Assembly: GCF_003815655.1 (NCBI RefSeq)
Contig: NZ_CP033917.1
Coordinates: forward strand, 4,154,001-4,218,000
Source: Chryseobacterium sp. G0201
GTDB taxonomy: Bacteria; Bacteroidota; Bacteroidia; Flavobacteriales; Weeksellaceae
Direction of reading: 5' to 3'
DNA: 64,000 nucleotides
In this document: positions 2,801 through 12,375 of the stretch, in pieces
How positions within the stretch are numbered: the stretch's first letter is position 1
How the letters are laid out: the number at the start of each line of letters is the position of its first letter
Made by a program: the position numbers and the translations under genes
The notes under the pieces: generated by a model
What the model saw: the letters and a program-made list of their open reading frames with translations, nothing else
Told to the model about the DNA's origin: nothing
The model's database searches: none

Positions 2801-5734
2801 TTAGTTTTTGATGAATCTTTTTGAGATCTCACCGATCTGGATCATGTAAGCACCTTTCACAAGACTGCTCACATTTACAGATCCTCTTTGAAGTTTTCCT
2901 GAGTTAATTAGTTTTCCACCCATATCGAAGATTTTGTAATCTTCTGAAGCTGTATTTGAAACATTTAAAATATCTCTTACAGGATTTGGATATAATTTAA
3001 TGTCTGTCATTAAATCTTTAGTATCTAATAGATCTCCTCTTCCTGAAGAAACAATATTTAGCGTATAATCTTCAACCTGTCCGTAAGTATATGAACCACA
3101 AGATGATGTTGGAACGGAATTATACTGCATCATTACTCTCATTCTGGTGGTTCCCACCGTTGCAGTTGCCGGAATTGTAATACTTCCGGTTACTGGAGTT
3201 GTTGTGGAACCTGTTTTAGACCAAGCTAATTCTCCGCTGTCTGTGAAGTCACCATCACCGTTGTAATCGATATAAACTGCATAAGCTTCGCTGTAAACCG
3301 TTGATGTCCAAACCGGAGTTACAGAAACAGTGTAAGCACTTCCTCTTGTTACATTGGTAGAAACAGCCGTGAAGTTTTCGTAACCTGCAGTTCCTGTAGA
3401 AGTATTGTTGATTGTTCCGAATTTTACATTACCGATTCTCTCGTCAGCTGTATTTGTTGAAGTTGCTGAACAGTAGCTCACAGAACTTCCTGCTAACGTT
3501 GTAACGCTCACGGAATTACTTGCAACTGAAATATTTCCAGCTGCATCTTTTGCTTTAACTGAGAAACTATAAGTTGTTGATGGCGTTAAACTTGTCGCTG
3601 TATAACTAGTTGAAGCCGTAGAACCTATCAATGAAACTCCCTGATACACATCATAACCTGTAACACCAACCGCATCTGTTGCACCTGACCAAGAAAGATT
3701 TGTACTTGTAGAAGTAGTTCCTGAAGCTGCTAAAGTAGGAGCCGTAGGAGCGATTACATCACCACTTCCCGAACCCGCATTTACTGTAATATTTGCATTA
3801 TTTATGTCAAAGAAAATATGATTTGAACCTTTTACCATAATTCTTCCAGTTGTTGTTGCAGCATTTGGAATAACTACAGCCTGAGTTCCGTCGTTTGGAG
3901 TTCCTGCCAATAGAGTAGTCCATGTTGTTCCTGAGTTGGTAGACCAAAGAATATCTACGTTTGCAGCGTTCACACCGTTGGCGGTAGTTCCTGCAACGTT
4001 CCATGTTACGGTTTGAGAAGTTCCTCCTGTATACGTTGTTGCTGAGTTTTGAGAACTTACACTGAATGGTCCGGCCGTTCCGTTAACTGTCATAACAGCA
4101 TCATCAGAATTATTTCCTGAACCTCCGGCTCTGTTGTCACGAACTGTAAATCTGAAGTTATAACTTCTTGCTACATTAGATAAAGCCTCCACAGTGATTT
4201 CCGAACCTGCGGTTGTTGTTGCTCCTGTTAAAACTGAAGCCATTCTTGGGAAATATCTTACAGGTGAAGTGGTTGGAGTCCAAGATCTGAAAGTAGGACC
4301 TGTTGCTTTTGTAGCACTTGCCGCAGAACTTGCTCCTGTTTGGGAAGAAGAAGCATTATCCATTTGCTCCCAAACATAAGTTAATGAATCTCCGTTGGCA
4401 TCAGTTCCAGTTCCTGTCAGCATAAACGGAGTTCCTTTTGGAATTGTATAATCTAAACCTGCGTTAGCTGTTGGGATTGAATTTCCTGTTGAAGTACTTA
4501 CAGGACAGGTTTTAGCTTTAATATTATTAGTGATCTGCTGAATGCTCACTGCATGGAAAAATGCATCTGAATGAGGTTGAATATCCTGAGCGGTAATTCC
4601 CGCATACCCCATAATGGTTGATCCAGAGCCCGGTTCCATATTCACGCCAGTTCCTTCATTAGCATGAGAAAAAGTGTGATTTCCTCCGAATTGATGACCC
4701 ATTTCGTGAGCTACATAATCGATATCGAAATTATCTCCTGACGGTATTGCATCTGCCGGAGAAGTATAACCGCTGCCTTTTGAACCGTTTGTACAAACAC
4801 AACCGATGCAACCTGCATTTCCGCCACCTCCGGAAGCTCCGAATAAGTGACCGATGTCGTAATTTGCTTCACCAATTACAGAAGTTAAAGTTGACTGAAG
4901 CTGAGAATTCCAGCTGCTCATTCCTGAAGCAGCAGAGTAGGGATCTGTAGAAGCGTTGGTGTAAATTACCGCATCATTATTAGCGATAAGAACCATTCTT
5001 GCTGCAAAATCTTTTTCAAAAACTCCGTTTACACGAGTCATTGTGTTGTTCATTGCGGCTAAGGCGTTTGCTTTTGTCCCGCCGAAATAAGCTGTGTATT
5101 CTCCTGTGCTTGAAAGTGCTAATCTGAATGTTCTTAATTTAGCATCATCAGCGTTGGGTCTTGCTGCAAGATTACTTGTATTGATAACACCTTTTTGAGC
5201 AACGTCAATTACCGTACATTCAAATTTATTAAGATCATCTTTCTTATCTGATTTTTTGTAAACAACATAAGTAGAAAGATCTTTTGTGTAAGGCTCAATG
5301 AAAACGGCAGATTTATCTCCATAAATTTCCATGGAAGATAATCCTAATTGAGAAATACTGAAATAAACTGTAGAATTTGGATCATCAAGACCTTCGCCAA
5401 CGTAAGATTTGATATCAGGATACTTTGCAGCTAATAGAGGATCAAAGTTTGAATTTTCTTTTACCTTAAAGTTTTCCATTTTCCCTTCTGAATTCGGGAA
5501 AGAAATAATGATCATGGATTTTTCACCAGCAGCCAGTCTTTTAGGAGCTTTGGCCAATACATTTTTTAAACCGTTAATATCAAGGCTGTAGACCTTAGGA
5601 TTAGTAACGAAATTCTTGTTTTCGAAGACTTCTGAATTTGTTTTTTTTGAGCCTTCAGACCAAAGACGATCTGTCTGAGCGAAAGAAATGCCTGTGATAA
5701 GAAGCATTCCAATCATTGATAACTGTTTTTTCAT
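2801..5734 (-). CDS. secreted reprolysin-like (M12-type) metalloprotease with T9SS sorting domain
   Basis: A 977-residue secreted protein. The start chosen is the ATG giving MKKQLSMIGMLLITGISFAQ, a clean signal peptide; an in-frame ATG 30 nt upstream would only add polar residues. The order is: propeptide-like region, zinc protease domain with HEMGHQFGGNH (HExxHxxGxxH, His about residue 343) and a downstream Met-turn MGYAG, Ig/PKD-like beta domains, a fibronectin type III domain (about 660-750), a GEVEDY-type domain (YGQVEDYTLNI), and a C-terminal T9SS type A sorting domain (IKLYPNPV ... KRFIKN). It probably degrades extracellular protein after export through the Por/T9SS route. Confidence 0.92.
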   Translation of the reverse strand: MKKQLSMIGMLLITGISFAQTDRLWSEGSKKTNSEVFENKNFVTNPKVYSLDINGLKNVLAKAPKRLAAGEKSMIIISFPNSEGKMENFKVKENSNFDPLLAAKYPDIKSYVGEGLDDPNSTVYFSISQLGLSSMEIYGDKSAVFIEPYTKDLSTYVVYKKSDKKDDLNKFECTVIDVAQKGVINTSNLAARPNADDAKLRTFRLALSSTGEYTAYFGGTKANALAAMNNTMTRVNGVFEKDFAARMVLIANNDAVIYTNASTDPYSAASGMSSWNSQLQSTLTSVIGEANYDIGHLFGASGGGGNAGCIGCVCTNGSKGSGYTSPADAIPSGDNFDIDYVAHEMGHQFGGNHTFSHANEGTGVNMEPGSGSTIMGYAGITAQDIQPHSDAFFHAVSIQQITNNIKAKTCPVSTSTGNSIPTANAGLDYTIPKGTPFMLTGTGTDANGDSLTYVWEQMDNASSSQTGASSAASATKATGPTFRSWTPTTSPVRYFPRMASVLTGATTTAGSEITVEALSNVARSYNFRFTVRDNRAGGSGNNSDDAVMTVNGTAGPFSVSSQNSATTYTGGTSQTVTWNVAGTTANGVNAANVDILWSTNSGTTWTTLLAGTPNDGTQAVVIPNAATTTGRIMVKGSNHIFFDINNANITVNAGSGSGDVIAPTAPTLAASGTTSTSTNLSWSGATDAVGVTGYDVYQGVSLIGSTASTSYTATSLTPSTTYSFSVKAKDAAGNISVASNSVSVTTLAGSSVSYCSATSTNTADERIGNVKFGTINNTSTGTAGYENFTAVSTNVTRGSAYTVSVTPVWTSTVYSEAYAVYIDYNGDGDFTDSGELAWSKTGSTTTPVTGSITIPATATVGTTRMRVMMQYNSVPTSSCGSYTYGQVEDYTLNIVSSGRGDLLDTKDLMTDIKLYPNPVRDILNVSNTASEDYKIFDMGGKLINSGKLQRGSVNVSSLVKGAYMIQIGEISKRFIKN

Positions 5735-9672: not shown

Positions 9673-9772
9673 AGATACTTCGACTCCGCTCAGCATGACA
9701 TCTCTAATATTAGTCGTTCTTTTTTAGCAGTTAATTTGTAGCAATGTCATGCTGAGCGGAGTCGAAGCATCT
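9673..9772. repeat. long inverted repeat (29-bp arms)
   Basis: Arms at 9673-9701 and 9744-9772 match at 28 of 29 positions (core CTTCGACTCCGCTCAGCATG) around a 42-nt loop. It sits just after the nuclease gene and can fold as a strong hairpin, so it may stop transcription. It looks like a dispersed intergenic element, since related stem-loops occur elsewhere in the window. Confidence 0.75.
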
Positions 9773-9832: not shown

Positions 9833-9910
9833 TATAAGCAGATTCACTAATAATCATTATCTATAAGTGTTTCTGCTTATATTTTTTATTTATAAGTAAT
9901 AATGCTTATA
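9833..9910 (+). promoter_or_regulatory. three-site operator TATAAG-N8-CTTATA in front of satD-like gene
   Basis: Three inverted repeats start at 9833, 9862 and 9891, exactly 29 bp apart. The second (9862-9881) and third (9891-9910) are perfect TATAAG-N8-CTTATA; the first (9833-9852) has one mismatch in the right half (CTAATA). The third overlaps the promoter -7 element. The downstream protein ends in a helix-turn-helix-like region, so autoregulation is the simplest reading; this is inference. Confidence 0.8.
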
Positions 9911-9914
9911 TTTG
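9907..9914 (+). promoter_or_regulatory. TAnnTTTG -7 promoter element (leaderless start)
   Basis: TATATTTG matches the Bacteroidota -7 consensus TAnnTTTG and ends 4 nt before the ATG at 9919. The transcript would start at or within a few bases of the start codon, so it is probably leaderless. The element lies inside the third operator site. Confidence 0.65.
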
Positions 9915-9918
9915 CAAA

Positions 9919-10524
9919 ATGATAGCGGTCCTTACGGGTGATATTATAAATTCGCAACACGCAGACACAGAAGTTTGGATTACCAAGCTAAAGAATCTTC
10001 TGGAAAATTGGGGAAGCTCTTCCCTTGTATGGGAAATCTACAGAGGAGACGAGTTTCAGTTTAAGTGCAACATTGATGATGCATTTTGGCGTTTTCTAGC
10101 CATAAAATCTCTTATAAAAAGTCAGGAAAATTTAGATGTAAGAATAGCCATTGGTATTGGTGAGGAGAATTTTTCGTCCGAAAAAATCACAGAATCCAAC
10201 GGAACAGCTTATGTAAACTCCGGAAGATTATTGAATGATCTAAAAAGTGATGGCCACACCGTTGCCATCAAAACTTCCAATGACAATGTAGACAGAGATC
10301 TTAATATTTTGTTGAAATGGTCTTCCAAAGACTTCGATAACTGGACGATGGCGACTTCTGAAATCATTCACGAAATGATTATGAATACCGACATCACTCA
10401 GGAAGATCTGGCAAAAAAATTCGCGATCTCACAATCGTCTATAAGCCAGCGACTGAAACGCGCAAACTACGAACTTATCGTAGAAACCAATCAATATTTT
10501 AGAAAGAAAATCTCAGAACTGTAA
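9919..10524 (+). CDS. SatD family protein (putative autoregulator)
   Basis: A 201-residue protein. The N-terminal part MIAVLTGDIINSQ followed by an EIYRGDEFQF motif and a VRIAIGIG strand looks like the SatD family, whose fold resembles nucleotide cyclase/GGDEF-like domains. The C-terminal part TQEDLAKKFAISQSSISQRLKRANYE is a clear helix-turn-helix. Family members are described from acid-tolerance (sat) operons of streptococci, but no biochemical role is firm. It is followed after 3 nt by a DUF3307 membrane protein, a frequent pairing. The triple operator directly upstream suggests that it controls its own two-gene operon. Confidence 0.82.
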   Translation: MIAVLTGDIINSQHADTEVWITKLKNLLENWGSSSLVWEIYRGDEFQFKCNIDDAFWRFLAIKSLIKSQENLDVRIAIGIGEENFSSEKITESNGTAYVNSGRLLNDLKSDGHTVAIKTSNDNVDRDLNILLKWSSKDFDNWTMATSEIIHEMIMNTDITQEDLAKKFAISQSSISQRLKRANYELIVETNQYFRKKISEL

Positions 10525-10527
10525 AAC

Positions 10528-11223
10528 ATGATCTTTACTAAACTCATATTGGCACATTTACTTGGAGACTTTATTCTCCAGCCAAATTCATGGGTAGCTG
10601 ATAAAGAGAGCAAAAAACTGAAGAGCAAATATTTGTATCTTCACGTTCTGATTCACACTGTTTTAAGTTTTGTTTTTCTTTGGGATCTACAACTTTGGTG
10701 GATAGCGGTTTTGGTGGGAGTTTCACATTTTATTATTGATGCCGCAAAGTTGACTTTTCAAACGATTAAGAATAAAAAGAATTGGTTTTTTATTGATCAA
10801 GCCCTTCATATTTTAGTAATTGCAGGAATATCTTTTTATTTTAATGAATTTAATTTTGAATTTTTAAAAGATCAAAACACTTTAAAAATATTGATGGCAG
10901 CTCTGTTTTTAACGACACCTGCTTCTATTTTTATTAAAATATTATTGTCTTCATGGACGCCCGTTCCGGAGACAGTAAGTAATATACAAACCGAATCTTT
11001 ATCAAGTGCAGGAAAATATATCGGGATTTTAGAACGTTTATTGGTTTTCACTTTTATTATGGTGAATCACTGGGAAGGCGTAGGTTTTATGGTGGCTGCA
11101 AAATCTGTTTTCAGGTTCAGCGATCTTGCACAGGCCAAACAAAGGAAATTGACTGAATATGTATTGATAGGTACATTACTGAGCTTTGGAATGGCAGTTT
11201 TAACAGGAATTTTAATTAAGTAA
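10528..11223 (+). CDS. DUF3307 domain membrane protein
   Basis: A 231-residue integral membrane protein with about six hydrophobic segments. The N-terminus TKLILAHLLGDFILQPNSWVADKE carries the HxxxDF(I/L)Q signature of DUF3307, and VSHFIIDAAKL with IDQALHIL adds the conserved His/Asp pattern in later helices. The function is unknown. It starts 3 nt after the satD-like stop codon, so it is translated from the same mRNA and is the probable target or partner of that regulator. Confidence 0.85.
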   Translation: MIFTKLILAHLLGDFILQPNSWVADKESKKLKSKYLYLHVLIHTVLSFVFLWDLQLWWIAVLVGVSHFIIDAAKLTFQTIKNKKNWFFIDQALHILVIAGISFYFNEFNFEFLKDQNTLKILMAALFLTTPASIFIKILLSSWTPVPETVSNIQTESLSSAGKYIGILERLLVFTFIMVNHWEGVGFMVAAKSVFRFSDLAQAKQRKLTEYVLIGTLLSFGMAVLTGILIK

Positions 11224-12016: not shown

Positions 12017-12375
12017 ATGAAATCGCACCGGATAGAAGATCTTAAAGTTTGGAGTAAATCAATGGCTTTAGTAAAAGAAGTGTATTTGGTTACCGCAGAA
12101 TTACCAAGTAAGAAAAATTTGGTTTACTGTCTCAAATTAGAAGATGTGCTGTTTCAATACCTTCAAATATTGCAGAAGGAGCAGGAAGAAATAATAAAAA
12201 CGAATTTTATCAATTTCTTGGAATTGCGTTTGGATCAACTTATGAATTACAAACACAGTTACAATTATTAATAGATTTAAATTTTATTTCTGAAAATAAA
12301 ATAGTTCCTTTAAAAGCACTTTTAGCTGAGATACAGAAAATGATTTATTCATTAAAGACAAGTTTAAAATTATAA
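12017..12375 (+). pseudogene. four-helix bundle (23S intervening-sequence protein type) gene with frameshift
   Basis: The first frame gives MKSHRIEDLKVWSKSMALVKEVY ... ELPSKK and then loses similarity. Reading continues in the +1-missing frame with GLLSQIRRCAVSIPSNIAEG, GRNNKNEFYQFLGIAFGSTYELQTQL and a stop at 12373-12375. Restoring one base in the run of A at 12113-12117 gives a normal 119-residue protein of the S23/four-helix-bundle family, originally known from intervening sequences in 23S rRNA genes. The unshifted frame would end at 12271 as an 84-residue product with a wrong second half. A sequencing error in the homopolymer is possible. The gene is tightly bounded by 25-bp inverted repeats. 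Confidence 0.85.

Follow-up and report, generated by a model that had tools for sequence, protein, structure and literature searches.

What reads the evenly spaced palindromes that precede the satD gene of Chryseobacterium sp. G0201, and what would be gained by reading them? The window, that is, the whole stretch of 64,000 nucleotides that was analyzed (contig NZ_CP033917.1, positions 4,154,001 to 4,218,000), carries satD at 9919..10524. Like all operator units, promoter elements, genes, domains and codons located in the window below, it lies on the plus strand. It encodes a protein of 201 amino acids belonging to the SatD family (PF16264; 47.9 bits, Pfam cut-off 29), which is named after the sat operon of Streptococcus mutans. 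Three inverted repeats of the form TATAAG-N8-CTTATA stand directly before the gene, and a gene for a DUF3307 protein follows it. The comparisons reported here make it very probable that the repeat array is the operator of SatD itself and serves cooperative negative autoregulation of the satD-DUF3307 pair, perhaps gated by a nucleotide.

The preliminary description of this DNA had listed two perfect palindromes and one near-perfect one in exact 29-bp steps, and direct reading combined with a pattern search returned precisely these. Unit 1 (9833..9852) reads TATAAG-N8-CTAATA, its right arm CTAATA deviating in a single position, while unit 2 (9862..9881) and unit 3 (9891..9910), the latter overlapping the core promoter, are perfect; the steps between them are 29 and 29 bp. 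The description had furthermore placed the units on similar faces of the helix. DNA has a helical pitch of 10.5 bp per turn. A step of 29 bp thus corresponds to 2.76 turns and one of 28 bp, common in other genomes, to 2.67 turns; at about 2.7 turns neighboring units lie on different faces, and same-face phasing was dropped. Perfect copies of TATAAG-N8-CTTATA occur three times in the whole 4.81-Mb genome: two are the satD units starting at 9862 and 9891, and the third is likewise part of a 29-bp pair. A two-unit pattern with up to three mismatches matched three times in this genome and not once in the reversed control. Loose counting of single sites within the window, allowing two mismatches, was uninformative, as six matches stood against 6.3 expected by chance.

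Within the genus, satD is present in 173 of 173 genomes, and from these we read 53 loci, comprising the 33 nearest and the 20 farthest by protein identity. With a tolerance of two mismatches, the unit at -28 is retained in all 53, the unit at -57 in 48 and the unit at -86 in 43 of them. Majority identity amounts to 0.88-0.97 inside the units as opposed to 0.53 upstream of the array, and in the 20 more divergent loci it is 0.88 in the arms versus 0.69 in the N8 centers. Since the arms are better kept than the centers, the pattern appears to mark protein-binding sites.

For the order Flavobacteriales, 163 satD loci were read (L031-L045 and L049 are not satD matches and had been excluded beforehand), and removal of 80 near-duplicates left 83 representatives. 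Autocorrelation of the 140 bp upstream of these genes peaked at lags of 28 (Z 24.7), 56 (Z 11.7) and 29 (Z 7.3). When the same regions were scanned for palindrome chains with steps of 28 or 29 bp and at most five units, 76 of the 83 representatives outscored all of 83 shuffles as well as every coding-sequence control. The 82 control windows, taken at -580 to -405, all stayed below this threshold, and other periods (24-27, 30-33 and 36-37) passed in one to five of the 83. The 179 called steps, for which only the two lengths were permitted, divide into 123 of 28 bp and 56 of 29 bp. In 53 of the 83 representatives (best-offset count) the arms start at intervals of 14 bp; combined with the 28-bp step, this spacing places half-sites of alternating orientation at a 14-bp pitch. 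Arm letters vary by lineage (TATAAG, TATTAG, TATTAC, TATCGG, TATCGT, TATCTG, TATTCC, TATATG, TATTGA, TATTGC, ATTGGC and others). Judging from these loci, the layout is general and the exact motif is not conserved.

The array is also found far outside this order. A phylum-level search matched in 66 of 296 genomes, and the 30 best-scoring loci were taken (L309 belongs to the window's own order, and L294 and L302 are incomplete or misread). With odd centers allowed, 26 of the 30 exceed the best of 150 matched shuffles, or 20 of 24 when counted by cluster. Five SatD queries against 72,556 plasmid records returned 16 records with satD, of which 13 were read: Vibrio, Salinivibrio (two), Pseudoalteromonas (two), Agrobacterium (one of four), Sphingomonas (two), Segatella, Fusobacterium and haloarchaea (three). 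An array is present in ten of these 13 loci, which are mostly proteobacterial and haloarchaeal, with three units 28 bp apart on the Vibrio plasmid and two units 29 bp apart on the haloarchaeal ones. The Fusobacterium candidate scored 19.2 against a shuffle maximum of 14.4 and was discounted on visual inspection, as it resembles a terminator hairpin; by score alone the count would be 11 of 13. The suggestion that the same motif should precede satD in other genomes therefore holds for the layout (76/83 in Flavobacteriales, 26/30 at phylum level, 10/13 on plasmids) and fails for the letters. On the viral side, satD was absent from the INPHARED phages, where the Vibrio partner was unmatched as well, and a scan of viral contigs with the Vibrio protein gave no match. 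Three IMG/VR contigs carry satD, L287 and L289 with arrays and L288 without; the first two, classed as viral, contain satD-DUF3307 pairs with strong 29-bp arrays. We further noted genes for AAA ATPases near the satD pairs of Vibrio and Segatella. On the Sphingomonas insulae plasmid (L330:11192-18682), an array-less satD-DUF3307 copy adjoins genes whose annotations name a Pycsar system and a TIR protein.

What kind of protein is SatD? Its AlphaFold model is of high quality (mean predicted local distance difference test score 94.5), and the order of strands and helices fits a palm fold followed by a linker helix and a helix-turn-helix (HTH). The HTH helices span residues 144-181 (10348..10461). 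The HTH-like C-terminal segment that had been proposed is thus present in the predicted model, while matches to HTH family profiles stay below their cut-offs. The N-terminal domain, residues 1-118 (9919..10272), is modelled as a palm-type, cyclase/GGDEF-like domain on the basis of the AlphaFold2 model, Foldseek and VIA-align 2. The best Foldseek matches are a GGDEF domain (6eib, E 3e-3), GTP cyclohydrolase III and class III cyclases, with Cas10 proteins, a bacterial cUMP synthase and OptS of the Panoptes system (9pd0, 9mnr) in lower rows; no match reached E<=1e-3. The best VIA match is 9l7d (Z 9.6 over 124 residues, root mean square deviation 3.2). The highest-ranking structures are throughout of the palm type. 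SatD appears to resemble the palm domains of GGDEF proteins, class III nucleotidyl cyclases and Cas10 in the fold of its model, in a GD[E/S]FQ hairpin and in Asp8. It differs from the GGDEF and cyclase proteins in that the best Foldseek E value is only 3e-3 and that profile comparison with one GGDEF and one cyclase protein gave no significant match. Asp8 and Asp44 are each conserved in 162 of 163 loci, and no significant alignment overlays them on the catalytic pair. Asp44 resides within RGD[E/S]FQ, which mostly reads LGDEFQ in the phylum-level loci. Catalysis by SatD is something we infer from the model at most. Against the anti-phage systems of PADLOC-DB 2.0.0 (2023 library), SatD had no match at E<=0.001; the HTH end alone gave weaker ones (E 0.003 and 0.007). 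Neither a sequence search of the PDB nor the open-access literature searched yielded a DNA target, an activity or a solved structure for SatD, and among the papers listed there no title or abstract dealt with its DNA target or with the satD-DUF3307 pair.

The arms change between lineages, and the HTH allows this change to be compared with that of the protein. Writing the half-site as TAT-N1N2N3, we used 70 loci, that is, the 83 representatives minus the seven below threshold and six with an unclear frame (L104, L122, L148, L150, L167 and L176), and a tree of their SatD N-terminal domains calculated with a quick method. No other variable column shares as much shuffle-corrected mutual information with the half-site as residue 177, which is situated inside the recognition helix (172-181) of the model. 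With Gln177, as in Chryseobacterium sp. G0201 (codon 10447..10449), N2 is A in 34 of 34 and N3 is G in 32 of 34 loci. Arg177 goes along with N3=C in 11 of 11 and Lys177 in five of six cases, and Glu or Asp at this position is accompanied by N1=C (10 of 10). On the tree, half-site changes occur on 34 of 138 branches, and 17 of the 24 changes of residue 177 fall on precisely these (p=1.2e-7), placing the residue first of 183 columns ahead of a runner-up at 1.8e-4. The 72 columns with 18-30 changes show 7.8 co-changes on average, and the best other column shows 15. Ten array-bearing plasmid loci had been held out: Lys occurs with N3=C in eight of eight and Glu with N1=C in two of two, a weak test given that all ten have N3=C and several are close pairs. 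As half-site letters co-vary with a residue of its recognition helix, SatD is supported as the putative binder, and autoregulation as its putative role gains from this co-variation as it does from the recurrent layout. Comparison lends good support to the interpretation given in the preliminary description, which carries beyond the scope assumed there.

The position of the last palindrome suggests what binding would do. A box with the sequence TATATTTG (TAnnTTTG, the -7 box) lies at 9907..9914 and overlaps the right arm of unit 3, in agreement with the earlier proposal that the last site covers this element. In a study on Flavobacterium psychrophilum, the TAnnTTTG box of the flavobacterial sigma-A is located at -12 to -5, and leaderless messages account for just 5.5% (PMC9723704). 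With the box at this distance, transcription would be expected to start at 9919, on the A of the satD ATG. A leaderless satD message, as it had been put forward, fits this prediction and is plausible for Chryseobacterium sp. G0201, at a strength tempered by the small share of such messages in F. psychrophilum. Across the 76 array-bearing representatives, 33 have a TAnnTTTG box no more than 14 bp from the center of the last palindrome (11.9 expected at random positions), and 27 of the nearest boxes begin at +6 or +8 from this center.

The array seems to be reserved for very few places. When 30 relatives were searched with the two-unit pattern, it matched in 18, namely all 18 members of the genus Chryseobacterium (G002 also has a control match, and in G035 the patatin array described below was matched and the satD array was not). 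Of 25 genomes chosen from outside the genus, 23 contain the pattern, and in 22 of these 23 every match lies upstream of satD. A broad regulon was thereby ruled out, since the 25 genomes show the pattern at satD only, except for one additional place with two mismatches in G318. SatD would accordingly be a nearly dedicated regulator with one main target per genome. The genus itself has a second tandem array of the SatD type, which in 18 of 18 genomes examined overlaps the stop codon of a gene for a CapV-like patatin-like phospholipase (in the window's own genome at G000:C1:1736820-1736868, equal to L049:3821-3869) and is retained although the flanking genes differ between these genomes. CapV-type phospholipases of the cyclic oligonucleotide-based antiphage signaling system (CBASS) are patatins too, but with 157.3 bits (E 5e-46) the protein remains under the cut-off of 200 for NF041079 and so is not a member of that family by the NCBI rule. 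None of the flanking open reading frames, which carry no profile annotation, stood out as a CBASS cyclase. The second array looks genus-bound: by eye it is missing at the patatin genes of G315 and G527, and degenerate in five divergent Chryseobacterium genomes. A recurrent sequence resembling AACACGTCAAGTTTTGTCGC was seen by eye near it (L049:3414-3450 and 3759-3795) and in many relatives.

The partner gene begins 3 bp past the satD stop codon. It occupies 10528..11223 and encodes a helical, probably membrane-bound DUF3307 protein (PF11750; 99.9 bits, cut-off 23). From residue 158 onwards (10999..11220), this protein contains a C-terminal module which we term LER (GxLER ... AAKSxxR ... EYxLIGTL) and which recurs in other SatD partners, even in ones where Pfam detects no DUF3307; its match to two such partners has E values of 3e-17 (probability 98.9) and 2e-4 (probability 46). 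A gene for a DUF3307-like or hydrophobic protein follows satD in 18 loci (in L288 the start of the partner is miscalled) as well as in 13 plasmid loci, as judged by annotation or by eye, and among the 30 phylum-level loci the next open reading frame after satD contains the letters LER in 23. The DUF3307 model has no match in the PDB (best E 1.4), and PADLOC-DB 2.0.0 contains no DUF3307 match up to E 0.01.

We infer the following chain of events. The C-terminal HTH of SatD would bind the promoter region of its own gene with one HTH per half-site, and SatD dimers would cooperatively fill a ladder of alternating half-sites about 14 bp apart, the palindromes following each other in steps of 28 or 29 bp. 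The variable bases of the half-site would be read by residue 177 in the recognition helix. As the promoter-proximal palindrome overlaps the -7 box, SatD bound there would cover this box and most likely block RNA polymerase, and occupancy of the array would lower transcription of satD and the adjoining DUF3307 gene. DNA binding is probably tuned by a nucleotide which the palm domain, with its conserved acidic pair Asp8 and Asp44, either binds or produces. Autorepressors with tandem palindromic operators are a familiar arrangement, with several palindromes, one of which lies over the core promoter. The satD array has the same features; unlike those operators, it has a 28/29-bp step with some 14 bp between successive half-sites that is kept across phyla while the letters change.

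Several observations weigh against cooperative autorepression by SatD. Seven of the 83 representatives fall below the array threshold, the Segatella and Sphingomonas insulae plasmid loci have no array, and divergent loci of Chryseobacterium, L050 and L053 for instance, retain a full palindrome at the proximal position only. In 43 of the 76 array-bearing representatives, no TAnnTTTG box was found at the last palindrome. Simple promoter repression does not account for the second Chryseobacterium array, located as it is at a gene's end. As for the residue 177 code, a stricter independent-pairs test was never contrary, but the supported pairs were too few for significance, and the code was not confirmed in phylum-level loci outside Flavobacteriales: when read as even-centered, N3=C is missing from Lys loci with GAAACA-type half-sites and from three Arg loci (L308, L312 and L318), and the Lys loci L290-L300 are mixed. 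Many phylum-level arrays score higher when read as odd-centered, which makes the frame of those arrays uncertain.

Could the same architecture serve something wider? We raise, as a rather doubtful proposal, that SatD and its LER-module membrane partner form a widespread, undescribed nucleotide-signaling pair of bacteria and haloarchaea with a Panoptes-like logic, in which the palm enzyme also represses its own operon. The optSE genes of Panoptes, which encode an mCpol palm enzyme and a transmembrane effector, are an adjacent pair, as are satD, with its modelled palm fold, and the gene for its probable membrane partner, and the OptS structures 9pd0 and 9mnr appeared in the fold search with SatD; SatD differs by its modelled C-terminal HTH and by the operator array. 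The terms 'helix-turn-helix', 'SatD' and 'DUF3307' were looked for in the main text of PMC12657218, which describes Panoptes, and are absent from it. Two points fit such a signaling pair, the array-less Sphingomonas copy beside Pycsar and TIR genes and the situation in Streptococcus pyogenes, where satD is, according to PMC11323703, essential yet accessory (present in 178 of 249 genomes), as would be expected if loss of satD frees something harmful. Support for a harmful partner held by SatD is indirect. If the proposal were true, SatD would check a membrane effector both via a nucleotide and by coating the half-site ladder in the promoter, and loss of the nucleotide or of SatD would free the effector.

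Turning to other explanations for the array, SatD might act there as an activator, or in both directions depending on a ligand, with distal units recruiting or positioning polymerase and the proximal one shutting transcription off. Palindrome centers as far away as -165 (L118) and the 43 representatives without a box at the last palindrome would suit such a role. We nevertheless regard it as unlikely, because the proximal unit, which overlaps the -7 box, is the only one retained throughout the 53 genus loci read, and because nearby boxes favor +6 or +8 from the last center, as for an occluding operator. Very unlikely is a centromere-like or membrane-tethering site at which SatD coats the ladder and the membrane partner anchors the DNA. 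The even 14-bp half-site pitch suits a continuous coat, 22 of the 23 matching genomes from outside the genus have the multi-site array at a single place, its neighbor genes encode a DNA-binding protein and a probable membrane protein, and some satD pairs are plasmid-borne; satD is, however, mostly chromosomal (just 16 of 72,556 plasmid records with the five queries), and Chryseobacterium has its second array at the patatin gene. Just as improbable is a different DNA-binding protein as the reader, with satD merely located downstream: the half-site changes along with a residue of the SatD recognition helix, and array and satD co-occur in other phyla. Least probable of all are repeats that act as RNA (hairpins or terminators) or form a selfish family, as their palindromic nature and the second array at a gene's 3' end might suggest, because the satD array lies upstream of the predicted transcription start, its arms are AT-rich and stay while the centers vary (0.88 vs 0.69 in the 20 divergent loci), its letters track a SatD residue, and copies of the pattern are not scattered through the genome.

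Two further elements of the window deserve mention. An inverted repeat with 34-nt arms that are 91% complementary and 32 nt apart is located at 9673-9772 and includes TTCGACTCCGCTCAGCATGACA, a 22-mer with 44 genome-wide matches (up to two mismatches) and none in the reversed control. The matches often form inverted pairs with a spacing of about 65 bp, and TTCGACTCCGCTCAGCATGACA belongs to a dispersed repeat family. An open reading frame at 12017-12271, just 3' of the gene for SAICAR synthetase, has a weak match below cut-off to the 23S rRNA intervening-sequence protein.

The SatD family occurs in bacteria and archaea and is without a biochemical function in the literature searched. The comparisons reported here provide it with a putative DNA target, a candidate one-residue recognition code, a predicted fold similar to nucleotide enzymes and a recurrent membrane partner. 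A layout that is kept across domains while its letters change constitutes a natural experiment in the co-evolution of regulator and operator, and SatD, having one main target in each genome, could find use as a design part.
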